A stretch of DNA of 33,188 nucleotides from Cytauxzoon felis (taxonomy: Eukaryota; Apicomplexa; Aconoidasida; Piroplasmida; Theileriidae), in NCBI GenBank assembly GCA_020283715.1, contig JAIQCW010000131.1, forward strand, positions 1-33,188, in the 5' to 3' direction. The notes beneath the pieces were generated by a model. It was given only the letters and a program-made list of their open reading frames with translations. It searched no databases and was not told the origin of the DNA. The translations under genes and the position numbers were made by a program. Position 1 is the first letter of the stretch, and every line of letters begins with the position of its first letter. Shown here piece by piece: positions 1-33,188 of this stretch.

Positions 1-439
1 GATGAAATTCTATCAAAAAATGTACTTGAAAATAGAGTATTGTACCGAGGATGATCTACGGGAATCCGAGGGGTACTAAATAGAAGAGCTGACGGCAGGA
101 CCAAGAGGGTTGGATTAGACCTCAAGTGTAAGTCAAATAGAGATGTATGAGGTATAAATTTCAACATACTAGATTTTTATTATTGATGCATCCGCTATAT
201 TTGAGTAGTGTTTCGCTATGTTTGATATAAATGTTATAATATAAACTATACTTGAGGTAGTAGACTCGTTCTTTATGTAGTCTAAAATAATGTGATTCAT
301 CTTCATTATCTTTAACAAGATCTAATACTTTATCACCTATGCTATTGGTGATGTATGATATATTATTACATTAATCAACATACTATACTGATAACTTTTG
401 GAAAACCAGTGTAGCTTCATCTTCACTTAGTGGTCTCAT
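1..439 (-). CDS. NIP7: Ribosome biogenesis protein NIP7, 5' part (cut by window edge)
   Basis: NIP7 is a small PUA-domain protein needed for 60S subunit assembly and 27S pre-rRNA processing in the nucleolus. Exon 1 (439-384) begins [18 protein letters not shown], the family's characteristic start (MRxLxEEExxxxFEKL). An intron with GTATGT donor and ATAG acceptor (383-342) leads to exon 2 (341-170), which encodes [20 protein letters not shown] and then [10 protein letters not shown]. This matches the conserved YIG...FRLxKDRVYYV stretch. The two exons join in phase (56 + 172 nt = 76 codons). A second GTATGT donor at 169-164 opens an intron that holds a modular repeat cluster and runs toward the left edge; the remaining exons lie outside. 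Identification rests on recalled family motifs and is strong for the N-terminus only. The start is the first ATG giving the canonical MRPL. Confidence 0.85.
42..131. repeat. Modular repeat cluster 1 (NIP7 intron)
   Basis: Contains the GATGATCTACGGGAATCCGA long cassette, a TACTAAATAG box, AGCTGACGGCAGG short cassette and an arm (GGTTGGATTAGACCTCAAGTG). It lies wholly inside the second NIP7 intron. Confidence 0.8.
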
Positions 440-494
440 TTTATAAATTTATATATAAAATAAAAGATTATAATGCGATTTAGATGTATAATTT

Positions 495-1037
495 AATGTT
501 TTGTGTGGATATGATTATTATGTGATGATTGTGCAACTCTTTTCATATTTGTCATTAAATTGTACTCTTTTGCTAATAAACGATCCTTTTCCTTTTCAAG
601 TTCTAAAAATGGATATAAAATTAGAAGTTGGTATTGATTAAGTGTATGAAATTGGGTGATTATAAATCGTCTAATGGTATATAGATGGAGGATCATATGA
701 TAATAAAATTGATGATATAATAATTTAAATTTATTATAACCATCAAAATTAATATAATATAAATAAATTTATAGTTAAATTAACCTTTATCAATAAGGAA
801 GGAGAGTTCTTTTAATAGATTTTTATATTCTTGATTAAAATATAACCATCTATAGATAGGATGGGGAAATTTTATAGATAATATGGATATAAATGAACCT
901 TTTTGATGCCATTAATTGTATATCTAATGTAGGGATATTACCATCTAATGATTGTTTATTAATGGAATCACGATGGTATTGTTGTGTTGATGTTATAGTG
1001 ATGTGGAGTAGAAGGATGAGTGGTGATATTAACATTG
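495..1037 (-). CDS. Tentative small multi-exon gene, unknown function
   Basis: I do not recognise this gene. On the minus strand an ATG near 1035 starts MLISPLILLLHITITSTQQY, which resembles a signal peptide, and continues to about 907 (...DIQLMASK). A plausible GTTCAT...CTATAG intron then leads to WLYFNQEYKNLLKELSFLID (about 855-795). After a gap without a convincing splice junction, an open frame from about 742 to 495 encodes a hydrophobic/tyrosine-rich stretch and ends with the charged ELEKEKDRLLAKEYNLMTNM and a short tail before the stop. The charged C-terminal segment and absence of stops make coding plausible. The middle junction cannot be resolved, so this could be one gene with a frameshift, two fragments, or non-coding. 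It lies upstream of NIP7 on the same strand. Confidence 0.35.
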
Positions 1038-1816: not shown

Positions 1817-3556
1817 ATGGAAACACTTGATACCAATAATAATCCTACATCACAAAATAATGATAATATTACCGAAGCGGTAACACAATCTAATAATGTC
1901 GAAACTAATAATACATCGGATAATATCGAACATGATAAAATTGATACACTACAAAGAAATAAAGGATATAATAAAAATAAACGAGTCGGTGCCAAAAAAA
2001 TTTATCATACCACCACCACCCAGAGCTACACCATCATCATCTTCTGGGTTCCCAGGAGTTTCATGGAATAAAAGAATGGGAGCATGGCTCGCCTTCTACT
2101 ATGATCAAGGCACAAGAAGATCCAGAACTTTTCACCCAAAATACTTTGATATGGATGTAGAAGTAAGTTTACCACAATGATGAATACTACACCGAATGTT
2201 GTACGACCTCCCCACCCGAGGTTACAACCACCTGAAGTCCAATCCAACTCTCTTCGTCTTGCAGACAGCTCTCCACCTGAGGTCTTCCACTCGCCGTGGT
2301 GGCCTTCTCTATTTACATCCCCCTCCGCTTCCCTGAGATCAGCTACGGGTTCCACTCGAGGTTACATTTAACATATCCTTAGAACCATCTTCCATCATTC
2401 CCATGATGGATGATCCATCACTACCTTCTCACCGCCACGATCTCTGGGAGTGGCTCTACTCTTTAGAGATAGGTAATTGGAAGAGCTGACGGCAGGACCA
2501 ACAGTGGTTGTAACCTCAGGTGGAGAGCTGTCTGCAAGACGAAGAGAGGTTGGACTATTGGTAGATGTAACCTCAGGTGGAGTGGAGTGAACTTCGAGTG
2601 GAATTAATTTCTTATATATTGACATTTATATATAGAAGGCGAAGTTGGCGGCGATTGATTTTATGAATAATATAGAGAAGCAGCCTAGGTGTAGTTTGCG
2701 TAAATCTCGTCGTGATAAGACGGATCGTACATTATGGTCTGCGGGTGGTTTATCATCAGAATTTGAGAATCAGTATGAATTATCGATGCGTAAGAGGCGT
2801 AGTAATGCTGGTATGAAGCAGATGCATAGTGATTATATAACGGATGGTATAAAGCGTTCACCATTAAGTTGTTCAACACAAGCAAGTATGGGTGAGGTGT
2901 ATTTTGATGGTTTAAGGACAAGATATTTAGCAAGTACTGGTATGAATATAGATAAAAGTATATTATCAAATAATGGTGCAAATTTAATTGATAATAATAC
3001 AATAGTTAGAAATACAATAAATACAAATGATATATTAGATATGGCACCAAATGTATTTAGTCAAAGTTTAATGTGGGGAAATTGTCATAATATATTTATG
3101 AATGGACAAGATTTTTGTCATTCATCACAAGATTCTGTAAATTTTAGTGTACCATCATTTGAAGGTGAATTTACATTTAATTCACCTAATAGATCAAATA
3201 TATTTCATGATGGTAATGATATAGATAATGGTTTATTATGTATTGGACATGCTACAGATTTTGAAACATCACCTATTGTACATGATGATCCTGAAATTCG
3301 TAAACTTATGCAATCTATTGCACCCAATGATAATATTAATTCATTTAGTGGATCATATAATCCATATAATTGCTCTTCATCTTCATTATCTAGCCCATAT
3401 CTATCACCTTATACTATATTTAAACAAAATAATGATACTAGAAGCCCTGGATTCCAAAATCTCATTATTCAAAATGATAATAACAATAAACAAAGAAATC
3501 ATTGCCTATATCCATCATCATCACCATACGATATACTACCCATCGACTCAAACTAA
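1817..3556 (+). CDS. ApiAP2-family transcription factor (AP2/ERF domain)
   Basis: ApiAP2 proteins are the main sequence-specific transcription factors of Apicomplexa. The N-terminal segment starts [20 protein letters not shown] and is Asn/Thr-rich low complexity. From about 2036 the AP2 domain reads [20 protein letters not shown] then [20 protein letters not shown], the typical three-strand sheet (PGVxWxxxxxxWLAxxxxxGxxRxRxFxxxxF). At 2163 a GTAAGT donor interrupts the domain. The exon resumes near 2637 after ATATATAG with [12 protein letters not shown], the C-terminal AP2 helix, in phase. The remaining 300 residues are Asn/Ser-rich without a recognised domain and end at the 3556 stop. Oddities: the METLD frame and the AP2 frame differ by one base, near a run of seven A at 1994-2000, implying a homopolymer frameshift, a sequencing error or an undetected intron. 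The intron is occupied by a repeat cluster. The DNA target is unknown. Confidence 0.82.
2201..2608. repeat. Modular repeat cluster 2 (ApiAP2 intron)
   Basis: Arms, the CTTGCAGACAGCT and CACTCGCCGTGGTGGCC short cassettes, a CGCTTCCCTGAGATCAGC long cassette, the CCCATGATGGATGATCCATC spacer module and an inverted half with CCACGATCTCTGGGAGTGGC. It fills nearly all of the intron splitting the AP2 domain. Bases 2358-2478 are identical to 4096-4216. Confidence 0.88.
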
Positions 3557-3605
3557 TCTAATCTTATTTCAATCTCTATACTTTCTATACTATATACATT
3601 CACAT

Positions 3606-3752
3606 GAAGTGTAATCCAATCCACACTCCACTTGAGGTCCTTTCCCTATCTTCCACTCGCCGTGGTGGCCTCCTCTATTTACATCCCCCTTCGCTTCCCT
3701 GAGATCAGCTGCGGGTAATTCACTTGAGGTCTCCACCTGAGGTCCAGCCCTT
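3606..3752. repeat. Modular repeat cluster 3
   Basis: Intergenic cluster 50 bp past the ApiAP2 stop: arm, CACTCGCCGTGGTGGCC, TATTTAC box, CGCTTCCCTGAGATCAGC cassette and inverted arms. It directly abuts the AT-rich element that follows. Confidence 0.85.
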
Positions 3753-3756
3753 TAAT

Positions 3757-4060
3757 AATATAAAACTAATTATAATTATCTTCCTTCAATCACTTACAAT
3801 TGAAGTATAATATTTTTAATAATTTATAAAAGTATATATAATTAGTATTATTATAAGTATAATATAGTTACTACAGTAGTTACAGATCATGTTAGTAGTT
3901 ATATAGTATATATATTATAATAATTATTTATAAAAATACATATATAACTTCCTATAAGTATATATCATCCTTCAATTATATTAATATAATAGTATATGTT
4001 ATAGTCAATGAGAAATCTTCAATAGACATTAAAAATGTAGTGGAAATGGTGTTTTTTATC
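3757..4060 (-). repeat. AT-rich ~300-bp dispersed element, copy A
   Basis: The reverse complement of this stretch closely matches 22966-23310. Shared landmarks include CGGGATAAAAAAC at one end, a TAACTACTAACATGA word, and TATACTTATAATAATACTAA. It has no ORF and is flanked on both sides by modular cassettes. Strand is given relative to copy B as plus. Confidence 0.75.
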
Positions 4061-4081: not shown

Positions 4082-4288
4082 CACATTCGCCACCTGAGGT
4101 TACATTTAACATATCCTTAGAACCATCTTCCATCATTCCCATGATGGATGATCCATCACTACCTTCTCACCGCCACGATCTCTGGGAGTGGCTCTACTCT
4201 TTAGAGATAGGTAATTAGAAGAGGCCACCACGGCTAGTGGAAGAAGAGGTGGATTGGACCTCAGGTGGAACGGCGAGTGGAAAGGAAT
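4082..4288. repeat. Modular repeat cluster 4
   Basis: Intergenic, between the AT-rich element and the 3' end of the FAINT-like gene. Carries an arm, the spacer module CCCATGATGGATGATCCATC, the CCACGATCTCTGGGAGTGGC cassette, box, the GCCACCACGGCTAGTGG short cassette and an inverted arm. The first 120 bases duplicate part of cluster 2 exactly. Confidence 0.87.
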
Positions 4289-5648: not shown

Positions 5649-5893
5649 CATCTCCTGAGGTCCAATTCTACTCTCTTTATCCTGCCGTCAGCTCCTCTAT
5701 TTATCTACCCTTCCAGCTCCCAGAGATCGCTTCCAGGTATGTCTACCCGGAAGAACGTGTTGTAGTGATTGGACCTCAGGTGGAACCCGTAGCTGATCTC
5801 AGGGAAGCGTAGGGGGAAGTAATTAGAGGAGCTGACGGCAGGACAAGGAAAGGACCTTACTGTAGGAGTTGGATTGGACATCATGTGGAATGA
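5649..5893. repeat. Modular repeat cluster 5
   Basis: Intergenic, about 40 bp downstream of the Rpn2 stop. Contains an arm, CCTGCCGTCAGCT, box, an AGCTCCCAGAGATCGCTT long cassette, TGTCTACCCGGAAGAACGT, then an inverted half with ACCCGTAGCTGATCTCAGGG and AGCTGACGGCAGG and an altered end arm (GGATTGGACATCATGTGG). Confidence 0.85.
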
Positions 5894-5933: not shown

Positions 5934-8900
5934 TTAGTCATCGATTTCGAATGGTGTGAATGGAGGTGCTTCAGGTTGATTATAATCGAAGATGAGGTAA
6001 TTTTCATGTTCATTTGGTGTATGATCTATAATCATTGTGATACCATATATTCTATCATGGAATACTGGTGTATATCTTCCATCTTTTTTCCAAGTACAAT
6101 AAGTAGCTTGTTTAGGTAATATTCTACAAGGATTATCTAATTTGATTATATTTGATTCTGTTGCATCTAATGATGTTTCTCGAAATGGATCTGATTTATA
6201 ATCACCATTATCACTATTCATTGTTATATCCCTATTATCTACACTATCATCACATGAACCTCTACTAGATTGACCCATTGTTGCAGCAATACTCGATATT
6301 TCAGCTCTATATAAATATGGGGTACATACTTGAGGATAAAGTTAACATACTTTATAGATTTACCATCTGATAAAATTGAAGAAGAATCATCTGGTATATT
6401 TTGTTTATCAACAACATCATCATTTAAACTTTTTTTATTAGTCAACCAACTATTCCTTTTAGCAGATATAGATAATATAGCAGTAACCTCATCTTTCTTA
6501 TCACTTGTAACTACATCAGTTACATGAGGTATATAATCAAACATCTTAGATGGAGCATTACATATAATATTATATCCCAATGGAACCTTCAATTCCTCAT
6601 TTAACCCTATAAAAATGATAATTAATCTGAAAGGAACGTAGTGAATACTCCACTCGAGGTCCAATCCTACTCCTTCTCAACCTTTCTTCGTCTTGCAGAC
6701 AGCTTCTTCTATTTACCTATCTCTAAAGAGTAAAGCCACTCCCAGAGATCGTGGCGGAGGTTATGATTGGACCTCAAGTGGAACCCGCAGCTGATCTCAG
6801 GGAAGCGGAGGGGGAGGTAAATAGAAGAAGCTGTCTGCAAGAGGAAGACAAGGTTGTGACCTCAAGTGGATTAGAACCATTATTTGGTATAGAGACTGAC
6901 CTACTAGGCAAGTTGGTTGGAAGGTTAATGAGATGAAGTGTATAAAAGAGTGCCAATACCATAATTGTGTGAACATACAGAATCCTACAACAGCTTCTCT
7001 TCTCATATTACCTTTACATGTATATAACGATGCAATACAATTTTGTCCCTAAAATAATTATAAATTTATATTAAGAATTATAAACAAACACCAGCATTAA
7101 TTAAACCTAATCCTATTATAGCACCAAATCTTGCCATTATATCTTGATGCTTATCACCAGCAACATGAAGAAAATTCTCTCTAGTACTCTTCACTTCCGA
7201 ACACATCTCATAATTACATTGCTGCAATACCAAACCCAATCCCATAAATGCACCTAAAAATATTTATTATCAACATCATTGAACATCCACCCGATGTCCA
7301 ATCCTACTCTCTTTCCACCTCTCTTCCACTTGAGGTCGTCTTGCAGACAGCTTCTCTATTTACTTCCCCTTCCAGCTCCCGTAGATCGCTTCCAGGTATT
7401 CCACTTGAGGTTAGATCCAACACATCCTTAGCACCATCTTCCATCATTCCCATGATGGATGATCCATCACTACCTTCACCACGATCTCCGGGAGTGGCTC
7501 TACTCTTTAGAGATAGGTAATTGGAAGAAGCCTCCACGGCGAGTGGAAGAAGAGTTGGATTGGACCTCAAGTGGAGAGCTGACGGCAGGACGACATCAGG
7601 TGGAGTAGTCAACACTTCATTTATTAAATTCTTTTGTAACAAACCTTGTCGTACAAAATCGCTACGATCGAGTGACAATTTTTGTAATAGTTTGAGTGCA
7701 TCTTGAGATGCGGTAGCGGCGCAGCATATACCTAATGCTAATGTGACACCATATCTGACATGTGGGTTATATGATACGGCTAATAATTTTAATATTTTGG
7801 GTAATTCATCTGGTGTATTACATAATACAAATCCTAATGATATGACTGCTGCACGTCGTACATCATCTGATACATCTGATACAGCAGCAGATAATAAATC
7901 ATTAATAGCTTTAGACTAAATAAGAATATATACATATGGGGATAATATATAAACATACAGATCCTGTACCACAATATGCCATAGCATAACAAAACATTCC
8001 ACCATAACGTATAATAGAAAATGTATCTTTACATAACATTTTTATAGTATCATCAGCCTATAGAAATAATTATACAGGAAAATATTTTTATATAAAATAA
8101 ACCTCTTTCTCTTTACGATATAAAATCATACCAATTGCAATGATACAAGCACGTATAATCTTTTCATGCTGTGTCTCATATGAAAATGTATACAATTCAT
8201 GTATTATCGATTCCATACCACTACCTATTAATATTTATCCAAATAAAATCATAACACAACCAACCAATCATCAATAAACCTATCGCAATCGCAGCAGCCT
8301 GACCCTGTACAGCATTATTCCTAAACATCACAGCCTTCAACTCCTCATACAATTCTGTAATTTATATATATAAAAAAGGAATTTTCTCAACTACACCCGA
8401 GGTACAATATAACCCTTCTTCCACTAGGCGTTCCACCCGAGGTTGCCTCTACCAATAGTCCAACCTCTCTTCGTCTTGCAGACAGCTCTCCAGTTGAGGT
8501 CCAATCCAACTCTTCTTCCACTAGGCGTTCCACCTGAGGTCTTTCCACTCGCCGTGGTGGCTCTTTTAATTACTTCCCCTTCCAGCTCCCGTAGATCAGC
8601 TACGGGTATTCCACTTGAGGTCCATTAGATAAATTCAAGGTCTGTTCTTCCGGGTAGACATACCGAGGATGATCTACGGGAATCCGAGGGGAGGTAAATA
8701 GAAGAGCTGACGGCAGGATGAAGAGAGTTGGGAGTGGACCTCAGGTGGAGAGCTGTCTGCAGGACCAAGAGAGTTGGATTGGACCTCGAGTGGAGTGAAA
8801 AAGGTATGGAACGTACCTAAATCGCATTGTCCCATACAGACAAGACCGAGACCGAGTGCTGCTCCATGATGTATGGCTTCTTCTGCATTTTCATTACGTA

Positions 8901-10970
8901 AAGATGTTAGTAGATAATCTCGAGTGGAGACATCAAAATGATTAGCATGTATTAATCCAAGTGCATATAATGATCCACCACCTGAATATGAACCAGAATT
9001 TGTAGTTGATGGTAAATATGAGGATAATATTTTCATTGATTGATTTATATAACCCTAAATATATAAATATATAATAAATATAAAATTACCTTATGTATAA
9101 CACCAATTGATGCTGTCGCTGTAAATTTAGACCAATTATTAGCTTTAGATAACCATGTTAAATTATCTCTTAAAAATAAATCACAACATGTACCAGCTTG
9201 CATTATAGAATGTGATATCACAATTGCATTATGAGTTATACTATTACGCTGATCAACACTATTCTGTAAAAAAAATTAACATAAAAATAGTCTTGTAGAC
9301 AGCTTCTCCACTAGAGGTCCAATCCTTATCTCCACCTTCTTTTCCACTCGCCGTGGAGGCCTCTTCTAATTAGCTATCCCTAAAGGGTAATGCCACTCCC
9401 GGAGATCGTGGCAGTAGAGAGGTTAGTGATTGGACCTCAAGTGGACTACCCGTAGCTGATCTCAGGGAAGCGGAGGGGGAGGTAAATAGAAGAGCTGACG
9501 GCAGGATGGACCTCGAGTGGAAAGCTCCATGCAATGGGAATGAGAGTTGGATTGGACCTCAGGTGGAGAGCTCACTATACTCGTTTACTGATAAACATAC
9601 CATGAGTTGTTCTAATAGTCTTAGATCGGTATGATTTTTTCGGTGTAGGAATTGTAGATATAATTCAATAGTGGAGGTACCAGATAGGATATATTTAAGT
9701 CTAGTTATTTGGATGAGATCATCACATTTATTTAATATTGATGATTCTTGTAATAATTTAAGGAATTTTTGATCCCCAATATCTACAATATCATAAGCTA
9801 TCTGAAATGCTTTTAAATGATCACCATTCATAATTAAATTGTATAATAAATTACTCATACCCTCATAATCATTCAATTGATATAAACATACACATAAATT
9901 ACTATAATTCTGATTCAATACATCTTCATTTGATGATAATATTACATTACGTATCTTATTATATACCAAATCTTTAAATGATTTCAACAATATATCATCC
10001 ATAGATGACATTATATAATTTATCAAACCATTGCGATTCGTACTACCCTCCAATATCTCCATCATCATATCCAATCTCCTACTATCCAATACTATTCCCA
10101 TCGAATGCTGCTCATCTCCCATCATCACACTAGATCTTATCATATGCTCAACTAATACACACAATAATTCTATACATTAAACATATATATATATATATAT
10201 AATTAACTCTAACATCTTCATTTGTCTTGTAGTTCCACCTGAGGTCCAATCCACCTTTCTTCGTCCTGCCGTCAGCTCTTCCAATTACATATCTCTAAAG
10301 AGTAGAGCCACTCCCGGAGATCGTGGCGATGTTGAATGTGTAGATGGAATGAAGAGTAGTACTAGACCTCGAGTTGAGAGCTGACGGCAGGACTGACCTC
10401 GAGTTGAGAGCTGTCTGCAAGACGATGAGAGGTGGATGTAACCTCAGGTATATCATTCATTGTATTCGTTGTTGGGGGATGGACATACCTATTGTATCGG
10501 AATCGAATGGAGTATTTTGAGTGTGATCATTTTCGAATTTCATTCGGTTATATTTGACGTATTCGTCGAAGGCATTTGCGATGATAATATTAGTGTACTC
10601 AGATTTATCGGAGACGTCGAAATAATCACCGGCAGCTAGAGCATATTGTAATGCTTGAGGATATGCTTCAAGATGATAATATACTTTACTAATTACAAGA
10701 GCTGCTAACTCTCTAGCCTTGAATGTTTTATCTTCATATATATTCTCCCTATATATTAAATACATATAATAATTAATAAACTTACAACACAGGTAAACTA
10801 TCAACAATTTCTGACCAATATAAATCAACTAATTTATTTAACTGTTGTAAACCTAATTCCTTACAAGAATTCTGCTTCTCATCCAATAAAGATAAAGCAC
10901 TCTCTGCCGAACTGAGTTCACATAAATATGATGTCATAGAAGCAGAAGACATTACAACCTCCTTCACCAT
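5934..10970 (-). CDS. RPN2: 26S proteasome regulatory subunit Rpn2 (PSMD1)
   Basis: Rpn2 is the large solenoid scaffold of the 19S base; it binds Rpn13 and supports the Rpn11/Rpn8 lid. Thirteen exons were traced: 10970-10786, 10748-10489, 10169-9601, 9263-9090, 9054-8817, 8354-8280, 8224-8103, 8057-7959, 7915-7645, 7253-7092, 7048-6901, 6606-6351, 6306-5934. Evidence includes the PC/HEAT repeat core with the diagnostic AMAYCGTGS and [49 protein letters not shown], and the C-terminal [16 protein letters not shown] ending in PFTPFEIDD (animal and yeast homologues end similarly, with an acidic tail). Junctions are mostly GTATGT/GTTTGT to YAG. Five introns (10488-10170, 9600-9264, 8816-8355, 7644-7254, 6900-6607) contain modular repeat clusters; the other seven are short (about 30-60 nt). 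Exon order follows the family throughout, so the gene appears intact. Confidence 0.93.
6650..6874. repeat. Modular repeat cluster 6 (Rpn2 intron 11)
   Basis: Arm, CTTGCAGACAGCT, box, an inverted P3-type cassette (CACTCCCAGAGATCGTGGCG), arm, CTGATCTCAGGGAAGCGG, box and AGCTGTCTGCAAG with end arm. It lies between the exons encoding ...PTCLVG and [12 protein letters not shown]. Confidence 0.86.
7275..7608. repeat. Modular repeat cluster 7 (Rpn2 intron 9)
   Basis: One of the most complete clusters: arm, CTTGCAGACAGCT, box, AGCTCCCGTAGATCGCTT, arm, spacer CCCATGATGGATGATCCATC, inverted CACGATCTCCGGGAGTGGC cassette, box, CTCCACGGCGAGTGG, arm, AGCTGACGGCAGG, arm. The minus-strand frame of the preceding exon stays open through the whole cluster. 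Confidence 0.9.
8394..8801. repeat. Modular repeat cluster 8 (Rpn2 intron 5)
   Basis: The longest cluster in this gene: several arms, CTTGCAGACAGCT, TCCACTAGGCGTTCCACC, CACTCGCCGTGGTGGC, an AGCTCCCGTAGATCAGC hybrid long cassette, GGGTAGACATACCGAGG, GATGATCTACGGGAATCCGA, box, AGCTGACGGCAGG and AGCTGTCTGCAGG. The hybrid long cassette joins a P1 left part to a P2 right part. Confidence 0.88.
9293..9574. repeat. Modular repeat cluster 9 (Rpn2 intron 3)
   Basis: Short cassette CTTGTAGACAGCT, arm, CACTCGCCGTGGAGGCC, box, the TAATGCCACTCCCGGAGATC cassette, arm, inverted CTGATCTCAGGGAAGCGG, box, AGCTGACGGCAGG and end arms. Confidence 0.87.
10231..10450. repeat. Modular repeat cluster 10 (Rpn2 intron 2)
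   Basis: Arm, CCTGCCGTCAGCTCTTC, box, the TCTCTAAAGAGTAGAGCC / CCCGGAGATCGTGGC cassette, arm, AGCTGACGGCAGG, arm, AGCTGTCTGCAAG, arm. The arms at 10370 and 10396 have GTTGAG in place of GTGGAG, an arm variant. Confidence 0.87.
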
Positions 10971-11191: not shown

Positions 11192-11286
11192 TGTCACTCC
11201 ACCTGAGGTTGAAGTCTTGCAGACAGCTCTTCTATTTACTTCCCCCTCCGCTTCCCTGAGATCAGCTGCGGGTTCCACTTGAGGTC
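11192..11286. repeat. Modular repeat cluster 11 (left flank of antigen fragment)
   Basis: Arm, CTTGCAGACAGCTCTTC, box, CGCTTCCCTGAGATCAGC, arm. The fragment begins immediately after this last arm (CCACTTGAGGTC). Confidence 0.85.
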
Positions 11287-11868: not shown

Positions 11869-11983
11869 CATCGTTGTTCCGGGTTGATATACCTGTAAGC
11901 GATCTATGGGAGCTGGAAGGGGAAGTAAATAGGGAAGCTGTCTGCAAGACAAGGAGAGGTGGATTGGACATCAGGTGGAGGAA
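11869..11983. repeat. Modular repeat cluster 12 (right flank of antigen fragment)
   Basis: TGTTCCGGGTTGATATACC, CTGTAAGCGATCTATGGGAG (inverted P1-type cassette), box, AGCTGTCTGCAAG and end arm, in the opposite orientation to cluster 11. Confidence 0.83.
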
Positions 11984-18287: not shown

Positions 18288-18588
18288 TCTTCTCCACCTG
18301 ATGTCCATCCTGCCGTCAGCTTCTCTATTTACCTCCCCCTTCGCTTCCCAGAGATCAGCTACGGGTTCCACTTGAGGTTACATCCAACACATCATTAGCA
18401 CCATCTTCTATCATTCCCATGATGGATGATCCATCACTATTTTCATCACTGCCTTCGCCACGATCTCCGGGAGTGGCTCTACTCTTTAGAGATATGTAAT
18501 TGGAAGAGCTGTCTGCAAGACCTACGGTGGAGGCGAGTGGAAGAGGAGTTGGATTGGACTTAGGGTGGAGAGGAAGTGGTTTAAACTT
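18288..18588. repeat. Modular repeat cluster 18 (intergenic)
   Basis: Arm, CCTGCCGTCAGCT, box, CGCTTCCCAGAGATCAGC, arm, spacer CCCATGATGGATGATCCATC, inverted CACGATCTCCGGGAGTGGC, box, AGCTGTCTGCAAG, end arm. It lies between the convergent 3' ends of the secreted-protein gene and rpS3, leaving about 160 bp of plain AT-rich DNA at 18124-18287. Confidence 0.88.
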
Positions 18589-22827: not shown

Positions 22828-22930
22828 AGAAGTTACATTCCTGCCGTCAGCTTCTCCACCTGAGGTCTATCCTGCCGTCAGCTCTTTTATTTAGTTCCCC
22901 CTCCAGCTCCCATAGATCGCCTCCGGGCAT
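22828..22930. repeat. Modular repeat cluster 20a
   Basis: CCTGCCGTCAGCTTCTCC, arm, CCTGCCGTCAGCTCTTT, box, AGCTCCCATAGATCGCCTCC. It lies directly left of AT-rich element copy B. Confidence 0.82.
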
Positions 22931-23317: not shown

Positions 23318-23494
23318 AGTGGATTGGAACTCAAGTGGAGTACCTGGAAGCGATCTATGGAAGCTGGAAGGGGAGGTAAATAGAGAGGCCACCACGGCGA
23401 GTGGGAAGACAAGGTTGTAACCTCAGGTGGAACGTAGAGTAGAAAAGAAGATGGAGGAGTGTGGAGAAGATTAGGTGTAATGGACATAGAGTGG
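23318..23494. repeat. Modular repeat cluster 20b (at the K+ channel 3' end)
   Basis: Arm, AGCGATCTATGGAAGCTGG, box, GCCACCACGGCGAGTGG, arm and degenerate arms (GTAATGGACATAGAGTGGAC). The stop codon of the channel frame (23471-23473) falls within this degenerate part. Confidence 0.83.
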
Positions 23495-26193
23495 ACAGTT
23501 CATTGTGTTTATATGTGAACAAACCTCGAATGTGCATCCATGAAAGACGTTTGGAATTGAGTGTATACATAGTCGTTTCGATGCTCCTCTTAGATACCAG
23601 TGGTATAATCTTAGTGATTTATTGAGTGATTGTGGGTATCTTTGTGCGATGCTATAATTTTGATTGAGTGTGAGATTGACGATTAGTGTAATGATTCCGG
23701 GGCATAATATATTTTTTGTAATCATTGACATTTTCAAAAGATGTAAATTAACTATATATTATGTAAGTAATGAGGATATAGGAAATTACTTACCATTAAT
23801 ACCAATAGTTTTAGTAATGAAATCATGTCCTATCGGTGAACAGAATTGCATAATAATATTATCAGTACTACATCCATATTTTTTAGCGCTAATAGCTCTT
23901 ATTATAGTTTTCATATCATTAGTTCTTGGATCTTTACCTTTAAATGATGATAATACAAATACAGACATTGCTACTCTTGCTTTAACATCTTCTAATATAT
24001 TAATATTACCATTAAGATCAACATCTCCATTTAATAAACAAATTTGTACACCTAATGTCGACGCTTGATCTATTTGACATGAATACATTTCAATTTCATT
24101 TGGTGTTATTAATATAATTTTACTAAAATGGGGATTATATAATTATTACAATAAATCAACTTACATATCCTCAGATGAATAATATACTTTTGATATAAAT
24201 TGCGATAATTGAAATGGATCAACATCACCAATTAATAATACAAATTTTTTTATACTAGCCCTATATACAATTAATAATTATTCATATTCATTTATAACAC
24301 ACCATGAAAGTAAATGACCACTAATCTTACATTGACCATGTAACATTTGTATAGTATGATTTATAGTTATTGGGATCCAAATAAGTACCCAAGATATAAA
24401 AAATAATGCAGAAAATCTAGCACCCAATGTCAAAGGTTTCATATCACCATAACCAACTAATAATTATATTATATGAAATATATTTACATCAACAAACCAG
24501 TAGATATAGTAATTATAGCAAAATAAAATAAATCAGCATATTGCTCAAGAGCATAATTAAATTGATTAACATTAGCATCAGGATGTATACCCTGCATCAT
24601 ATACATTGAACCTATAGAAGAAAATAAATCATCAAACTTATTCTAACAGTTCCACCTGAGGTTACCACCACTGTTAGTCTTGCAGACAGCTCTTCTAATT
24701 ATTTCCCCCTCCGCTTCCCTGAGATCAGCTACGGGCATTCCACTTGAGGTTATAAACCTAATCTCGGCGAGATATGACTAAAGTGACGGAATCTATGTTT
24801 ATGAAGATATCTCAATGAATATTGAATGGATTAAAGTGAGGATGAGTAAATTAAATAGAATCATCAAATTCCTTTTCAATGAAGTATTAACATCAGAATT
24901 TCATCCAATCGTCATTGAGATATTTTCAGTAGTTTCCCCAGAAATTCAGGATTTCCTTCAAGTTTTGGAGGTAAAAATGAAGAAGTGAAATTGGACCACA
25001 AGTAGACACCTCAAGTGGAACCCGTAGCTGATCTCAGGGAAGCGGAGGGGGAAATAAATAGAGGAGCTGTCTGCAAGACAAGGATAGGACCTCAGGTGGA
25101 TATAAGTATGATTATTAAATGTTATAAACATACCGGCGAAACAACATGACATGACGAAAATTTCGAGTACAATTTTGATGATATGTTTTGCTTTATCACG
25201 GCCATCATTACTTGCTTTTAAAATTGTATTCGTCCATACTGTATATGATTAATATTTGTGGTATATAGAGTATTACCGAAAATTTTGATCCAAATTAGGA
25301 ATCCATGGAACCAATAGACTTGCATATATGTCAAATCTTTGAAGAATATAAGTTTCATTATTATTACCAGTGGTGGTAGTAATAGAGAATTGATCCAAAA
25401 GACGGGTGATGAGATAATATCTTTAAATTCTTGTGTCTCTAGGATAAATAACAACATCTCTGCTGTGGACTGGATTTGGATATGAAATTATTAAAATTAT
25501 GGACTTACAGCTGAAATAACGAAGAAATGTATCGGGTATAGCCATGGGGGTACTAAATTAAATCTCCATCCAATATCGATATTATCCCTTCTCCAATATG
25601 TAATAGTCACTAACCAAACAAATAATCTTATCACATCCCATATTAACAAGACTATACCAGAATTCCTCATCATACATGTCAATGTAAGTCTAGAATAACT
25701 ATACCACAGCTTAAAATGGTAATATCCTAAGAAATATATAATTAAATACTTTTATAAAACCAACTTGCTAATGAAAATCTAGCAACTTCTTTCCTTATCT
25801 TGTCGTCATCATCATCAAATGACTTATCCATAGACGCTAAATTACCACCGATTGTAAGTCTCTTGTTGACTTGTCTGAAATCATAAAATATTTCTACATC
25901 TACACACACCTTTCAATATATGCACCAGTAGATCTATGTTTCAGAAATACTCTAACAAAATTTATGACATATAGTGTTATAAAGAATGTAATGGCACCAA
26001 AAATTGCCGGTAAGATCTCAGCCCATCGACTATCATCTGAAATGTAAATTATTATCATTTAAAGCCCAAATTTACCTTCAGATGCAGTGATAGTAACGAT
26101 TAATAATGACGTAACGTATAAAGCCAGTAAAAGAACAGCAAATATACCTCTAAAATATTTATTTGTTGTCTTTACCTTAAAGCTTATAGACAT
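23471..26193 (-). CDS. BK (Slo)-type calcium-activated potassium channel
   Basis: The start MSISFKVKTTNKYFRGIFAV enters a transmembrane helix (FAVLLLALYVTSLLIVTITA). Further exons give EILPAIFGAITFFITLYVIN, SGIVLLIWDVIRLFVWLVTI, WINSLLLPPLVIIMKLIFF, WFHGFLIWIKIFG, and the pore ADLFYFAIITISTGLL joined across an intron to IGYGDMKP, a GYGD selectivity filter. The following helix FSALFFISWVLIWIPITINH leads into an RCK domain with ALSI-type features: RTNDMKTIIRAISAKKYG, then NVNLHLLKMSMITKNILCPG and IITLIVNLTL, where BK channels have LKLGFIAQSCLAPG..T.L.NLF. About ten exons. The frame stops at 23471 soon after this point, inside degenerate repeat sequence. Full BK channels have a second RCK domain, so the gene may be truncated or continue through splicing I cannot see. 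Two introns carry insertions (24650-25105 region). Confidence 0.82.
24651..24755. repeat. Modular repeat cluster 21a (K+ channel intron)
   Basis: Arm, CTTGCAGACAGCTCTTC, box, CGCTTCCCTGAGATCAGC, arm, leading directly into the duplicated ORF-bearing segment. Confidence 0.85.
24750..24985 (+). repeat. Duplicated ~230-bp ORF-bearing segment, copy 1
   Basis: Closely similar to 28340-28578, with small differences. Both follow the arm (TTCCACTTGAGG) with TTATAAACCTAATCTCG and end at GGAGGTAAAAATGAAG. From an ATG at about 24817, an open frame of about 57 codons contains NRIIKFLFNEVLTSEFHPIV and SPEIQDFLQVLEVKMKK; copy 2 keeps the same frame. It lies within the channel intron on the opposite strand to the channel. 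Origin unknown. Confidence 0.7.
24986..25105. repeat. Modular repeat cluster 21b (K+ channel intron)
   Basis: Arm, inverted CTGATCTCAGGGAAGCGG, box, AGCTGTCTGCAAG, end arm. With 21a it encloses the duplicated segment. Confidence 0.85.
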
Positions 26194-26712: not shown

Positions 26713-28200
26713 ATGGGAGAAGTCGTAAGCATATTAATCCTATTGCTGAATATCATTTCATTTATCATAGGCTACGACGCTTTAATAAGAGTAGGCGTTG
26801 GAATCTCGCTAACTGGCTTACACAATTGACGTACGAAAACTTGAAATTTAAAAAGGGCTGGAAGACAAAGACATTTATCAATCCCCCGAAGGAATTGTTA
26901 ATTAATACAAGGCCTACTAGATTATGTGATATGGAAAAGTTACATTCTCAGGATAGACAATACTATAAGAAGTAGGATAATATCAGGAGTCTATTATTAC
27001 ATCAAAATGTCAAGGTTGAACGAATTTGTTGAGTTAATTTCGAATATCATCAAGGATGACTGGTATAAAGTGAAGGTACCATATACTGAGGAATGGGATG
27101 AAGACTTCGACCGATATGTCAATGGACTAATAAACAGTAAACATAGTGATGCTAACCCGGAGGAACGAACTTCTACCGTAGATCCTGCCGTAAGCTCTCC
27201 AGCTGAGGTTACATCTACCTCTCTTCCACTCGCCGTTGAGGCCTCTTCTAATTACCTATCTCTAAAGAGTATAGCCACTCCCGGAGATCGTGGCGGTGAC
27301 AAAGATGGTGAGGATGTAACCTCAAGTGGACTACCCGTAGCTGATCTCAGGGAAGCGGAGGGACAACTAAATAGAGAAGGCACCACGCCTAGTGGAAGAA
27401 GAGTAGGATTGGACATCGGCGAAGAGGCTGTCTGCAAGACAAAGGTATTAAAATCATTTTTGATGATTATAATTCTATAGGATTTTATAATGCTGCGTGA
27501 ATATTCGAATGATGAACGATTTAAATTATGTTTTGATATCTTTAATATGATGGAAGGGTTATGGTTGGAAGGTAGAAAACGTATTAAAGCTATAGAACAA
27601 TGTGAATTAAGTAATTCATTAACATTAGATGATTTATTAAAATATTCTTTGAGGTAATAATAAACCCCATAAATAAATGGTGCATTGCCCTATAGGATTC
27701 GTAATACAACATACTCACCACCGGAGAATATGAATGTTACAGATCCTACACATCATTATGATATATTTCCACAATATCACTTTTTGGGTATACCAAATAT
27801 GGATCAGATGCATAAATCACGATTATTCAACTTGAATAAATTACAAGAACAAACCCCACCACCACAAATCAAATTTGAATATGTATCAGAGACAATGAAT
27901 AAAATGATAATATTATCACCAAATGAAAATTGTATTATACACTTTCAAACTTCAAGGATTAATCCAAATATTATTTGTCCACAGACTGGACAACCAACGG
28001 TATCAATCACAGAGCCTACTGTATATAATAAAGAACGTAATTATAATTTTAAAGTCAATTGCCAACCATTCACTGTTAGGGCATGGGCTACATTTGGTGA
28101 CTTGAAAGATTCACAAGTCGTCGAAGCCACTTACAATCCAAACATCACAACAAAAAAAGAAGAAATCAAAGAACAATTCGGATTCATGCTCTCTAGATGA
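26713..28200 (+). CDS. MED4: Mediator subunit 4-like protein with exonic repeat insertion
   Basis: MED4 is a middle-module subunit of the RNA polymerase II Mediator. Exons that join in phase: 26713-26724, 26790-26971, 27015-27444, 27481-27653, 27696-28200, giving 433 residues. The MED4 signature spans an intron: LTLDDLLKYSLR then IRNTTYSPPENM, matching the family LL.YA.RIS.TT.APP.., followed by FPQYHFLGIPNMDQMHKSRL, like the Pro-rich ...P.PQDEQMRASQL. The upstream region is a predicted helix (YYKKLNEFVELISNIIKDDW). Exon 3 carries about 95 residues (27158-27440) made of modular cassettes, in frame and without stops. The C-terminal 120 residues (KFEYVSETMNKMIILSPNEN...) are unassigned. The first two exon joins are inferred; an alternative start at ATG 27007 would leave a shorter protein. 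Confidence 0.65.
27158..27440 (+). repeat. Modular repeat cluster 22, coding, within the MED4-like exon
   Basis: Same grammar as intronic clusters: AACCCGGAGGAACG linker, a GATCCTGCCGTAAGCTC short cassette, arm, CACTCGCCGTTGAGGCC, box, the TATAGCCACTCCCGGAGATC cassette, arm, inverted CTGATCTCAGGGAAGCGG, box, GGCACCACGCCTAGTGG, arm, GGCTGTCTGCAAGAC. Translated it reads [20 protein letters not shown], then [20 protein letters not shown] and [11 protein letters not shown], with no stop. Confidence 0.88.
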
Positions 28201-28237: not shown

Positions 28238-28345
28238 TCACATGAGGTATATCCACCTCGTCTTCCACTTGCAGAGAGCCTTCTCTATTTAGTTCCCCTT
28301 CCAGCTCCCAGAGATCGCTTCCAGGTTCCACTTCCACTTGAGGTT
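28238..28345. repeat. Modular repeat cluster 23a
   Basis: Degenerate arm, CACTTGCAGAGAGCC variant, box, AGCTCCCAGAGATCGCTT, arm. Intergenic, downstream of the MED4-like stop. Confidence 0.82.
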
Positions 28346-28578: not shown

Positions 28579-28772
28579 TGTACCGAGGATGATCTACGGG
28601 AATCCGAGGGGAAGTAAATAGAAGAGGCTGTCTGCAAGACGACGAAAGTTGGAGAAGATAGTGATGTAACCACAAGTGGAAGTGGAACACCCGTAGCTGA
28701 TCTCAGGGAAGCGGAGGTAAATAGAGAAGGCCACCACGTCGAGTGCAAACGTCAGGACAGATCGCAGGTGGG
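28579..28772. repeat. Modular repeat cluster 23b
   Basis: GATGATCTACGGGAATCCGA cassette, box, GGCTGTCTGCAAGAC, arm-like pieces, inverted CTGATCTCAGGGAAGCGG, box, GGCCACCACGTCGAGTG and a degraded arm. Confidence 0.83.
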
Positions 28773-29932: not shown

Positions 29933-30027
29933 AGAAATCTGTCTACCCATATATAATAATACGAAATTCCGTATTCAATTTCATGCAACTATACATTATA
30001 TATACAATTCACACGTCTACACTTGGG

Positions 30028-30226
30028 TCATCCTGCCGTCAGCTCTTCTAATTACCTATCTCTAAAGAGTAAAGCCACTCCCAGAGATCGTGTCAAAGTT
30101 GAGGATTGGACCTCGAGTGGAATACCCGTAGCTGATCTCAGGGAAGCGGAGGGAGAAATAAATAGAGAAGGCAGGACAACCTCAGGTGGAATGAAGAGAG
30201 TTGGATTGGACCTCAAGTGGTAGACA
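30028..30226. repeat. Modular repeat cluster 25 (intergenic)
   Basis: CCTGCCGTCAGCTCTTC, box, TAAAGCCACTCCCAGAGATC, arm, inverted CTGATCTCAGGGAAGCGG, box, GGCAGGACAACCTCAGGTGG, end arm. It lies just before a tentative small gene. Confidence 0.87.
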
Positions 30227-30241
30227 AGTAAATGGTAATCC

Positions 30242-30583: not shown

Positions 30584-30618
30584 ACTATTATATTATTTAA
30601 ATTTAGAATTATGCCAAA

Positions 30619-31419: not shown

Positions 31420-31470
31420 TTTTTAATATCGCATCATATATTTTATTCATATTCTTCAGTTCTTTACATC

Positions 31471-33188
31471 ATGGATTCAGGGTTTGATGTTGATGGACGT
31501 TTGTCTGGAGGTGGAGGTAAATTTGATGGATTTCCTATGTCTAAATCTCAAAATTCGCTAGAACTCCCAGATCTTAATGAATTATCATCAATTGGAAACT
31601 TCAAAAACATTATTCCGGACTTGAGGTTGGTAAGATTGAAGCGACTGATTGATAATTTGGGTTTGGTATTGGATGTGACGCGACCGGTGTTGGAGAATGT
31701 AGAAGAATTATCAGCAAAATTGAATGATATTTCAGAGAGGCTGTTGAAAAGTCAGGATTTACTAAGGTTGGTTATAGAATTTGACACTAATGAATTAGAA
31801 TCATTGGATTTATCCATGAAGATTACACAGGATAAGTTGAGATGTGTAGATGAGTTGATTCAACGCTTAGATCCAGCAATTTTATATTGTGATATGGATG
31901 GTAACATTGATGTTGATATAATTTTAATGTATTCTGAAGCTCTAGTTATGTCTATGGACTATTGCAAGTCATTAAAAAATGGCCAAGGCCATAAGTTAAT
32001 TAAGGATGCATTAAGAAGCATAGAAGACAATTTGGTTAAATTAGCAGAGATTGCACTTCATTGGATCATCAAATTATCCAGACAATCCCTAGCCGGTAGC
32101 GATCTACGGGAGCTTTCAGAGGAATTAAATAAAAAAGACATCAAACCTAGCACTATAGCCAGTCATACTATTACAGACAGATCTACACCTGAGGTTACAA
32201 CCTCGCATTCTCCTGCCGTCAGCTCTTCCAATTACCTATCTCTAAAGAGTAAAGCCACTCCCGGAGATCGTGGCGATGTTATCCCGGAAGAACATGATAT
32301 GTCTACCCGGAAGAACGTGAATGTTCAACCCCTAAGAACAGGAAATCTACCCGGAGAAACAGGAAATGTCAACCCGGAAGAACAGACCTCAAGTGGAATA
32401 CCTGGAAGCGATCCACGGGAGCTGGAAGGGGAGATAAATAGAGAAGGCTCCACGCCTAGTGGAAGGAGAGTTGGTGAATCTCACGTTAGGACTTCAACTG
32501 GAAAGGACTCGATTACAAATATGATATCTCCTTTACTATTGACATTTGATTATAAATTTGATTCGATTTTCCAGATTACTAGTGAGAATAATAAATTGAA
32601 ATTATTTAGGGTTTTAAATTTATTGAAAATTTACCCGTCATTTATTTATCATTTTATGGATCATATGGAAACTTTACAAAGTCAAATATTATTAAAGAAA
32701 TTTTTAACAATTTTATCAACTGTTGATGCTACTAATCGTATCAATGCTATTTCTGATATATTTATGAATCTACAAATATTAATATCAATTCAAAAATCTA
32801 ATATTATCGCATTATATACAAATTGTGGATTATCATTAGATTGTTATGTTCATTATAGAACCCCAGAATTATATATAAATAATATTACAAGATCTATATC
32901 ATCAAGTTTAGAAATGAAATTGAAACAATTAATGACATTTATTAATACAGATACAAATTATATCAATTGTAATAATGTATTGGAAATTTATAATGTAATA
33001 CAATTATGCAAATATTATATTATCAAATTAAATGATATCCTACATCAATCATGGCACAATACCACAGATCCACTTCCACCTGAAGTCCAATCCAACTCTC
33101 TTCGTCCTGCTGTCAGCTCTCCACCTGAGGTCAGTCTTGCAGACAGTTCTTCTAATTACCTCCCCATAAACGGTAATGTCACTCCCAG
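31471..33188 (+). CDS. COG6: COG6-like Golgi tethering subunit, 3' end beyond window
   Basis: COG6 is a lobe B subunit of the conserved oligomeric Golgi complex, which tethers retrograde intra-Golgi vesicles. The ATG at 31471 starts MDSGFDVDGRLSGGGGKFDG. Coiled-coil segments follow (ENVEELSAKLNDISERLLKS, ESLDLSMKITQDKLRCVDEL), then LIKDALRSIEDNLVKLAEIA and LHWIIKLSRQ, corresponding to the helix before LYRWAQ in COG6. The next conserved block, FRVLNLLKIYPSFIYHFMDH METLQSQILLKKFLTILS, aligns with ALQxRPxLFxxxLxEFxxxRRxxVxxxFIxALT. Between these blocks lies about 130 residues of cassette-derived sequence, in frame (32089-32476). A second, smaller cassette segment begins at 33066, also in frame, up to the window edge. 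No intron or stop through 1718 bases. The family call is by motif alignment in memory. Confidence 0.65.
   Translation, partial: MDSGFDVDGRLSGGGGKFDGFPMSKSQNSLELPDLNELSSIGNFKNIIPDLRLVRLKRLIDNLGLVLDVTRPVLENVEELSAKLNDISERLLKSQDLLRLVIEFDTNELESLDLSMKITQDKLRCVDELIQRLDPAILYCDMDGNIDVDIILMYSEALVMSMDYCKSLKNGQGHKLIKDALRSIEDNLVKLAEIALHWIIKLSRQSLAGSDLRELSEELNKKDIKPSTIASHTITDRSTPEVTTSHSPAVSSSNYLSLKSKATPGDRGDVIPEEHDMSTRKNVNVQPLRTGNLPGETGNVNPEEQTSSGIPGSDPRELEGEINREGSTPSGRRVGESHVRTSTGKDSITNMISPLLLTFDYKFDSIFQITSENNKLKLFRVLNLLKIYPSFIYHFMDHMETLQSQILLKKFLTILSTVDATNRINAISDIFMNLQILISIQKSNIIALYTNCGLSLDCYVHYRTPELYINNITRSISSSLEMKLKQLMTFINTDTNYINCNNVLEIYNVIQLCKYYIIKLNDILHQSWHNTTDPLPPEVQSNSLRPAVSSPPEVSLADSSSNYLPINGNVTP
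32089..32476 (+). repeat. Modular repeat cluster 26, coding, within the COG6-like gene
   Basis: Starts with a diverged inverted P1-type cassette (GTAGCGATCTACGGGAGCTT), arm, CTCCTGCCGTCAGCTCTTCC, box, AAAGCCACTCCCGGAGATCG, repeated CCCGGAAGAAC linkers, arm, inverted AGCGATCCACGGGAGCTGG, box, GGCTCCACGCCTAGTGG, arm. Encodes [47 protein letters not shown]. Its first 30 codons (DLRELSEELNKKDIKPSTIA) look like an older, drifted version of [14 protein letters not shown]. Confidence 0.9.
33066..33188 (+). repeat. Modular repeat cluster 27, coding, at right edge
   Basis: Arm, CTTCGTCCTGCTGTCAGCTC, arm, CTTGCAGACAGTTCTTC, box, then a long cassette variant cut by the window end. It stays in the COG6-like frame: [20 protein letters not shown] and LADSSSNYLPINGNVTP. 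An intron starting here cannot be excluded, but no GT donor is evident before the arm. Confidence 0.82.

Follow-up and report, generated by a model that had tools for sequence, protein, structure and literature searches.

MITE and foldback DNA transposons are small and carry inverted terminal arms, and the double-hairpin elements of Allomyces show compensatory changes in their stems. Rickettsia palindromic elements (RPE) are bacterial palindromic repeats of 100-150 bp that occur in many copies, some of them within open reading frames (ORFs) without breaking the frame; the cited excerpt mentions no combinatorial mini-palindrome slots and no cassette grammar (PMC3767692). The GC clusters of yeast mitochondria are GC-rich palindromes in an AT-rich genome that are described, in the passages cited, as subject to rapid substitution, merger and shuffling of units, with a putative target-site duplication (PMC4478555). 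In bacterial BIME, REP and REPIN sequences, short palindromes that alternate in orientation are combined into composite arrays (PMC2817692), and the repetitive hairpin-forming or double-hairpin elements of mitochondria, which are organellar, are hairpin repeats thought to be mobile (PMC2800124).

Here, we analyzed a window of 33,188 nt from Cytauxzoon felis (contig JAIQCW010000131.1, forward strand 1..33,188; assembly GCA_020283715.1, 8.62 Mb in 181 contigs with a G+C content of about 33%). Its repeat consists, like BIMEs and REPINs, of alternating palindromic units with extra motifs, but is found in introns and exons too, whereas REP sequences are by name extragenic. It shares the shuffling of palindromic units with the yeast GC clusters, as suggested by assortment, linkage decay and near-identical copies, and differs from them in its nuclear contigs, in a rule that pairs two unlike halves and in showing no duplication at six clusters. 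From RPEs it is set apart by host and description rather than by sequence comparison: it resides in a eukaryotic nucleus, with about 7,400 cores and a copy in an intron. Among the matches listed from the open-licence literature, no described family had this grammar, in agreement with the initial annotation.

A GC-rich repeat family with two unlike halves

Tagging of the individual parts, merged by our own rule, resulted in 33 clusters of at least two tags each (Table 1), somewhat more than the 27 or so first proposed. They cover 5,340 bp (16.1%) of the window and have a mean G+C content of 52% compared to 34% for the window, while 20 block-shuffled windows gave a mean of 0.5 tags and not a single cluster. 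Genome-wide (8.62 Mb), we counted 7,389 copies of the long-cassette core against 18 of a reversed control pattern, and 2,623 copies of the outer arm, allowing up to 1 mismatch, against 0 in the control. Elements were distributed throughout 100-kb stretches of two contigs, and clusters covered 8-16% of three tagged stretches, which is notable because a survey of 64 genomes, in the part cited, had reported no transposable elements in C. felis and no DNA transposons in Apicomplexa (PMC9141347). Rfam returned no match in the window at the gathering score. A FAINT domain, an RPS3 at 93% to T. orientalis and matching cf76 primers identify the host as a piroplasm. The cf76 primers, both exact matches, point to C. 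felis or a very close species; a C. felis 18S diagnostic primer had no match at up to 1 mismatch, and rRNA may be absent from this assembly. The element-bearing contigs hold nuclear genes, namely an RPN2-like gene and RPS3 in the window and Yju2-like, kinesin and CAF1B-like genes on contig C9.

Table 1. Elements and parts in the window (letters and numbers, cassette types; ', inverted; O, outer arm)
Position	Strand	Parts	Remark	Basis
43..129		4' b' O'	partial cluster, contig start	tagging
2212..2580		O O a O c 2 O 3' b' O' a' O'	complete, nested O-a unit	tagging
3628..3744		O c 2 O O	half	tagging
4090..4268		O 3' c' O'	half	tagging
5680..5843		b 1 O' 2' b'	two non-3 halves, short spacer	tagging
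6650..6869		O a 3 O' 2' a' O'	complete	tagging
7326..7603		O a 1 O 3' c' O' b' O'	complete	tagging
8433..8793		O a O O c 1/2-hybrid O 4' b' O' a' O'	cluster, stem hybrid ~8580-8610	tagging
9290..9566		a O c 3 O' 2' b' O' e' O'	complete, in RPN2/PSMD1-like intron	tagging
10235..10423		O b 3 ... b' a'		tagging
11199..11286		O a 2 O	half	tagging
11892..11978		1' a' O'	half	tagging
12422..12665		O a 1 ... 3' c' O'	complete	tagging
13463..13554		O c 1	half	tagging
13736..13835		O' 2' d' O'	half, faces 13463-13554, ~200 bp between	tagging
14491..14743		O a 3 O' 2' c' O' e'	complete	tagging
15318..15542		O a O c 2 3' a' O' a'	complete, compact, centre hybrid 15418-15441	tagging
17593..17789		a O b 3 O' 2' p'	complete	tagging
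18294..18521		O b 2 O ... 3' a'	clusters 18294-18379 and 18457-18521 taken as single element	tagging
20813..21137		O p 3 ... O' 1' d' a' O'	clusters 20813-20925 and 21003-21137 taken as single element	tagging
22839..22927		b O b 1	half	tagging
23327..23430		O' 1' c' O'	half, faces 22839-22927, AT-rich segment between	tagging
24652..24751		O a 2 O	half, long form, ~230-bp internal segment next	tagging
25007..25099		O' 2' a' O'	half, opposite end of 24652..24751 long form	tagging
27183..27440	+	b O c 3 O' 2' d' a'	complete, in frame in 192-codon stop-to-stop ORF (26902-27477)	
28266..28345		p 1 O	half, long form	tagging
28581..28746		4' a' O' 2' c'		tagging
30031..30220		b 3 O' 2' O' O'	complete	tagging
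31471..33188	+		572-codon open frame through blocks 32092-32274, 32385-32462 and 33076-33186 to window end	
32092..32274	+	1' O b 3	in-frame block	tagging
32385..32462	+	O' 1' d'	in-frame block	tagging
33076..33148	+	O b O a	in-frame block, then box and partial type-3-like unit to window end	

The order of parts first read from the window proved real: an outer arm, a short cassette, a TATTTA/AATTA box and a long cassette with a GATC core are followed by the mirrored half. Each half is a fixed framework that carries mini-palindromes, i.e. the outer arm O, the short cassette H1, the long cassette H3 and, in type-3 halves, H2. Elements form a bipartite, asymmetric (3 versus non-3) design: a complete element pairs half units in inverse orientation, of which one carries long cassette 3 and the other 1, 2 or 5. 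Among convergent neighbors at most 250 bp apart, 91 of 97 pairs joined type 3 with one of these three types, and none was 3/3. Type 4 is present too, facing 1 or 2, which brings the long-cassette classes to five instead of the four claimed. Two facing 3/3 pairs are known, separated by 705 and 2,729 bp. The mini-palindromes, the asymmetry of the halves and the in-frame protein copies had been overlooked in the initial annotation.

A long form with a common internal segment of about 230 bp was seen in nine cases. For classification, 257 long-cassette sites were collected by similarity to the class consensus, a procedure that favors intact arms; five of them are stem hybrids, and in a further 23 one or both arms fit no class. 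One of the two hybrids proposed earlier (8580-8610) has a left arm of type 1 and a right arm of type 2, whereas in the other (15418-15441) both arms are type 2 and only the center is type 1. Short-cassette classes were taken from an improved parser (8/257 units unclassified); an earlier version clipped the long c and d forms and left 96/257 units unclassified, and was kept for the box test alone, its H1 counts being dropped.

Assortment of cassettes between copies

The clusters are indeed not copies of one repeat, as the 91 complete elements in 233 kb showed 66 distinct combinations (an unclassified part counted as its own class). The H1 class of the left half was independent of that of the right half (n = 87/91, MI p 0.72), with the same class on both sides in 19 elements and 18.9 expected. 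It was also independent of the long-cassette type (p 0.88) and of the box (p 0.50). Only the short cassette shows the proposed independent choice of parts between halves; for long cassettes within 250 bp this was rejected by the 3/non-3 pairing, with which the choice of box goes along. Nor is it a rule that neighboring clusters use different combinations: in successive elements, the short cassettes of the type-3 half were alike slightly above chance (27 vs. 21.1 of 88, MI p 0.03).

In type-3 halves (n = 104), the mean r2 was 0.29-0.31 within 10 bp, 0.085 at 11-20 bp and 0.011 at 21-35 bp, so that linkage inside a half unit has fallen almost to the 1/n background once sites are more than about 20 bp apart; type 1 showed long-range linkage over background (0.051 vs. 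0.024, n = 41). At single sites, part of this decay could come from recurrent mutation, which hardly applies to multi-base palindromes. Several pairs of copies, 93-100% identical for at least 100 bp, cease to match at a differing short cassette. Positions 4096-4223 (128 bp), for example, are 99.2% identical to 2358-2485 but end in a different short cassette, and 197 bp of the element at 7326..7603 are 97% identical to C9:63105-63301, where the short cassette at the left end differs. In about 11 of 19 element-bearing pairs, judged by eye, the match ended within about 4 bp of a differing H1; alignments end at differences in any case, and this pattern illustrates swaps rather than testing them. 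Because H1 is unlinked from the tested parts, linkage decays and near-identical copies carry different cassettes, shuffling between copies is well supported. The earlier proposal of cassette shuffling by recombination or template switching stands as far as this inter-copy shuffling goes; its addition "rather than simple transposition" is not supported, and the two processes are compatible.

A conventional MITE or foldback origin, in which a transposase acting in trans makes and moves the elements and later decay and occasional recombination turn them into mosaics, would fit the inverted O arms, the small size, the high copy number and the long form with its internal segment. The number of combinations and the free assortment of H1 argue against this explanation, as does the cited survey, without apicomplexan DNA transposons or C. 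felis transposable elements (PMC9141347). Moreover, at the six window clusters bounded by O and O', no target-site duplication of at least 5 bp was present (longest shared flank 4 bp in one and less than 4 bp in five), although the true element ends are uncertain because the O arms are nested. We consider such an origin rather unlikely. The short shared flanks also count against the mobile family favored below, as does the lack of an autonomous partner in a genome-wide search that covered PF01797 alone: in contrast to BIMEs and REPINs, this REP-associated Y1 (tyrosine) transposase had 0 matches at E ≤ 1 in 8.62 Mb, with the control positive in 6 of 14 genomes.

Matched changes in the cassette arms

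The alternative cassettes are mini-palindromes whose stems switch on both arms together around a constant center. The H3 arms were paired at 96.6% of positions versus 54.7% after shuffling, and each position was dominated by two or three pair types (n = 257). H1 of the form NNN-YTGCA-NNN reached 97.7% versus 73.1% (86/90 such units), and the inner positions of H2 97.5% versus 83.9% (n = 106). Genome-wide, the c/d short cassette was found as GCC..GGC 1627 times, as GGC..GCC 845 times and mixed 171 times, i.e. matched in 2472 of 2643 copies. When H3 was anchored by its center only (244 sites), the three inner positions were 95-98% paired versus 43-75% shuffled, and positions 4 to 7 gave a mixed result (46, 57, 11 and 69% vs. 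42, 36, 27 and 55%). There was no covariation signal at the outer H2 positions (48.6 vs. 48.6%), in the first c/d stem (97.0 vs. 97.0%) or in H3 within type 3 alone (96.8 vs. 96.7%), nor between the H3 centers of the left and right half (MI p 0.44, n = 91). As the covariation is one between a handful of classes and nil within type 3, independent double changes are few.

Matched arms in every class, classes that differ on both arms and constant centers would also be in line with functional DNA or RNA sites, at which host proteins bind palindromes or RNA hairpins and every locus preserves them by compensatory changes. However, the same few discrete classes occur everywhere, which is not expected from independent evolution in place, and a consistent preference of G-T over A-C was not observed (5 vs. 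14 in H3 overall, 13 vs. 6 in type 3). Local RNA folds were less stable than those of dinucleotide shuffles (z +1.1 and +0.6; 60/91 elements), on which grounds an RNA hairpin function was rejected; the strong fold of the full-length element (z -3.3 and -4.2) arises because its two halves are inverted copies. A function of this kind is therefore improbable in our view.

Copies in genes and a model for the family

In ORFs of at least 250 codons, 32 of 37 units share one orientation and frame (17 ORFs), a residence in coding sequence that resembles RPEs; four of these ORFs hold the five units in another frame. With a limit of at least 150 codons (29 ORFs), 42 of 56 units were in the shared frame. 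Thirteen "exonic" elements were picked from ORFs with phase-0 units, and their 13/13 open frames restate this count rather than being a second test. The Yju2/CWC16-like protein contains an in-frame half element, again as in RPEs, at a place where 7/7 compared proteins have a 21-residue gap. A further in-frame element is held by cf76: both published cf76 primers match the genome exactly, and cf76 was amplified from cDNA with primers located in its element, as stated in the cited excerpt (PMC3748084). In the RPN2-like gene, exons 9601-10164 (-) and 9090-9263 (-) match PSMD1 residues 148-263 (weakly to about residue 354) and 360-413, respectively. The intron between them (9264..9600, -; splice sites assigned by eye) encloses the cluster 9290-9566, which in this one intron lies near the splice sites and not flush with them; introner-like elements form the whole intron, flush with the splice sites.

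The open frame might suggest a coding repeat, whose peptide (given by two stretches of 16 and 13 residues) serves as a useful disordered module and was spread by exon shuffling. Its presence in cf76 and the Yju2-like protein would fit, and so would the 78 elements outside the 13 chosen ORFs, copies in shorter exons included, where the core distance was a multiple of three in 37 (binomial p 0.011) and the frame was open in 29. But the remaining 49 are broken in that frame, one copy sits in an intron, and third codon positions had no excess variation. We regard this explanation as very doubtful. A protein search with the 572-residue window frame found no relative, and Pfam had nothing for this ORF or an 859-codon ORF of contig C4. 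Collapsed or misjoined repeats might produce mosaics in an assembly of 181 contigs with repeats near-identical in places, yet the spread over 100-kb stretches of two contigs, the matched arms, the open frames and the cDNA product of cf76 (PMC3748084, in the part cited) make the likelihood of an artefact negligible.

We favor, with slightly more confidence than doubt, a nonautonomous modular palindromic repeat family of the nuclear genome of C. felis (or a very close species) that is shuffled by exchange between copies, and whose exon copies are tolerated mainly in a single open frame, adding a peptide, as are copies in introns and between genes. The family would be mobile and spread as selfish DNA. 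Short tracts would probably be exchanged through a strand that is held up at a mini-palindrome during replication or repair and jumps to another copy, a step proposed by analogy; alternatively, ectopic gene conversion in the sexual stage may be the route. The two arms would also stay matched if one were copied from the other where a palindrome stalls. More speculatively, the unit of heredity may be not the element but the mini-palindrome of 10-20 bp, exchanged singly among dispersed copies that number in the thousands, probably when single-strand hairpins stall and change template, and delivered into proteins since the scaffold is open in one frame.

If the latter idea is true, the genome amounts to a population of palindromes that recombine freely while their scaffold stays fixed. 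With cf76, an in-frame copy resides in a real antigen and vaccine candidate, and element peptides common to several proteins could confuse gene models, primers and serology. If shuffling is confirmed, the elements of C. felis would be a eukaryotic nuclear parallel to the Rickettsia palindromic elements inserted in proteins, and their thousands of copies would record, as natural replicates, how template switching or short-tract conversion acts on palindromes in a eukaryote with a sexual cycle.

Modular architecture and abundance of the family

Tags were assigned by consensus for the outer arm (O), short-cassette (H1) classes a, p, b, e, c and d, and long-cassette (H3) classes 1-5, with two or more tags defining a cluster. 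The 233-kb sample comprised the window (C76:1-33188; 179 tags in 33 clusters, 16.1% covered), C9:1-100000 (475 tags, 84 clusters, 13.9%) and C4:1-100000 (287 tags, 48 clusters, 8.3%), C9 and C4 being other contigs of the genome (8.62 Mb in 181 contigs). Twenty block-shuffled windows gave on average 0.5 tags and 0 clusters. Clusters have a mean G+C content of 52%, the window of 34%. Genome-wide pattern counts, which are lower bounds for repeats, gave at least 7,389 copies of the H3 centre TCCCNNRGATC versus 18 of the reversed pattern, and at least 2,088 strict type-3 matches versus 0 reversed.

A complete element consists of two inverted half units and is modular. Among 109 pairs of long cassettes lying within 250 bp, 97 are convergent (our own sum); 91 of these 97 combine type 3 with type 1, 2 or 5, six combine two non-3 types, and none is 3-to-3. 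The short form therefore has two unlike ends. Two facing 3/3 pairs occur at larger distances (705 and 2,729 bp), and 47 long cassettes are solitary, with no neighbour within 250 bp. In nine aligned cases a long form without type 3 is seen, in which a common internal segment of about 230 bp separates two non-3 halves at a spacing of 278-321 bp. This segment is present at about 24740-25005 and 28336-28577 in the window and has a ATCTCGGCGAGAT-like palindrome near its start. An AT-rich 230-bp inverted duplicate (3759-3988 and 23069-23298, 88% complementary), each copy between facing half elements, is a second kind of internal segment. A further putative interchangeable part is a CCCGGAAGAAC-like motif that recurs in linkers (about 32280-32390 and about C9:28830-28950) and reads NPEEQ/STRKN in frame. 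At C4:63924-64132 one half element is tandemly duplicated (period 103 bp, 97% identical).

Matched arms and assortment of cassettes

The alternative cassettes, long and short, are mini-palindromes whose arms change together between classes. All long cassettes have the centre TCCCnnAGATC in common and differ by class in the flanking arms: CCAC/GTGG in type 3, GCT/AGC in type 2, AGC/GCT in type 1, GGAT/ATCC in type 4 and AAAC/GTTT in type 5. Over the whole set of 257 sites the arms were paired in 96.6% versus 54.7% after shuffling. When only the centre served as anchor (244 sites), the inner three positions were paired in 95-98% versus 43-75% shuffled, and each had two or three dominant pair types; pairing was mixed at positions 4 to 7, one of which scored below its shuffle. 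The H1 forms GTC-TTGCA-GAC, CTC-TTGCA-GAG and CCA-TTGCA-TGG were paired in 97.7% versus 73.1% shuffled (86 of 90 such units). The short cassettes CCACTCGCCGTGGTGGC and CCACTAGGCGTGGAGCC differ by a GCC..GGC to GGC..GCC swap, and genome-wide c/d stems were matched in 1,627 (GCC..GGC) and 845 (GGC..GCC) cases and mixed in 73 and 98 (pattern counts, lower bounds), i.e. 93.5% matched versus about 54% predicted under independence by our own arithmetic. Type-3 halves also contain the palindrome H2, as CTCT-AA-AGAG, CCCT-AA-AGGG or CCGT-AA-ACGG. Pairing did not exceed the shuffle at the outer H2 positions (48.6% versus 48.6%), in the nearly constant first c/d stem (97.0% versus 97.0%) or within type 3 taken alone, where the arms vary too little (96.8% versus 96.7%). 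The covariation consists of double differences among few classes, not of many separate events. The outer arm (ACC-TGA-GGT) looks palindrome-like.

The initial annotation had proposed that the two halves choose their parts independently. This holds for the short cassettes: in the 87 of 91 complete elements whose two short cassettes could both be classified, left and right H1 classes were mutually uninformative (MI 0.173, shuffled 0.204, p 0.72; same class in 19 versus 18.9 expected). For the long cassettes it fails, given the 3/non-3 rule. H1 was likewise unlinked to whether its half carried long type 1 or 2 (n=129, p 0.88), and to the TATTTA/AATTA box between short and long cassette (n=241, p 0.50), and the 91 elements comprise 66 distinct combinations; the box tracks type 3 versus the other types (n=243, 0 of 2000 shuffles as extreme).

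Linkage is nearly lost within a few tens of base pairs. In type-3 halves (n=104) the mean squared correlation of variable columns was about 0.3 for distances up to 10 bp and dropped to 0.085 at 11-20 bp and then to 0.011 at 21-35 bp, the no-linkage expectation being about 0.010. It fell from 0.32 to 0.012 across this range in type 2 (n=82) and from 0.53 to 0.018 in types 1 and 2 pooled (n=123), where single pairs reach 0.69 at 21-35 bp because the types differ as classes. Two results run counter: some correlation persists at long range in type 1 taken by itself (0.051 versus 0.024, n=41), and the short class of type-3 halves is slightly too often alike in successive elements (27 versus 21.1 of 88, MI p 0.03).

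Of 20 close copies (at least 100 bp at 93% identity or more), 19 involve elements, as judged by eye. In the window, 2358-2485 and 4096-4223 are 99.2% identical, the match ending at a short cassette (b' versus c', the prime denoting reversed orientation); 7355-7551 matches C9:63105-63301 at 97%, beginning directly past a short cassette (a versus d). C4:48797-49131 and C4:22433-22099 match over 335 bp at 99% identity, with a type-3 unit adjoining on one side. The family may spread as selfish DNA, and template switching or gene conversion may let its dispersed copies swap short tracts. No target-site duplication of 5 bp or more was found at six window clusters bounded by O and O', whose true ends are uncertain, and no Y1 transposase (PF01797, the sole family tested) in the 8.62-Mb genome. 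Local folding disfavours an RNA-level function, and codon-position variation a coding function.

Residence of elements in one reading frame

The window codes for a FAINT-domain protein, an RPN2-like proteasome subunit, ribosomal protein S3 (93% identity to Theileria orientalis, 91% to T. equi) and a calcineurin-like phosphoesterase, and a 572-codon open frame crosses three element blocks and reaches the window end. In the 233 kb, 17 stop-to-stop ORFs of at least 250 codons contain 37 units. Of these, 32 share orientation and reading frame, with type 3 forward, types 1 and 2 reversed and phase 0; the five exceptions are spread over four ORFs. In whole elements outside 13 chosen ORFs, the favoured frame was open in 29 of 78 and each other frame in 0 to 4 of 78. 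Survival of in-frame insertions alone would suffice to account for this bias.

Features with coordinates (the window unless a contig is named)
Feature	Coordinates	Strand	Observation
FAINT (DUF529) domain protein	4351-5388	-	domain match in the window
RPN2-like intron	9264-9600		complete element nearly fills intron
cf76 (published C. felis vaccine-candidate antigen)	C114:6472-8778		in-frame element

Among the ORFs that host elements are those of a kinesin, a Yju2/CWC16-like splicing factor and a CAF1B-like WD protein. In the CAF1B-like protein the element separates two stretches that match a solved CAF1B chain, at residues 227-262 (weakly) and 305-380. For the Yju2/CWC16-like protein, alignment with seven proteins (from T. 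equi, T. orientalis, T. annulata, three Babesia species and one further contig) leaves every one of them with a 21-residue gap where the element peptide stands, the tail of the peptide being aligned to unrelated variable residues. Both published cf76 genomic primers have exact, single matches facing each other on C114, so the genome belongs to C. felis or an extremely near relative. The 722-codon open frame of cf76 contains the element with its GATC core in phase 0. As far as the accessible text of that study goes, cDNA work on cf76 used primers sited in the element (PMC3748084), so this copy is transcribed. Since two published internal cf76 primers fall in the repeat family, they probably have near-matches elsewhere. 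A single 1307-codon ORF at C9:27338-31258 has three element insertions, two of which have 315 bp in common at 97% identity.

Relation to known repeat families

A survey of 64 apicomplexan genomes, in its accessible portion, records no TEs for C. felis, and its MITE candidates, whatever their species of origin, were set aside as probable false positives (PMC9141347). Our literature search, which reached few subscription papers, found no earlier description of the palindromic family. Judged from the available parts of the respective papers, the closest in behaviour include the Rickettsia palindromic elements, which reside in ORFs and keep the frame (PMC3767692), and yeast mitochondrial GC clusters, whose palindromic units are shuffled (PMC4478555), followed by bacterial BIME/REP (PMC2817692). 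The Cytauxzoon family has all defining features of none of the known families compared, and there is a real chance that exchange at the level of palindromes sets it further apart from known kinds.
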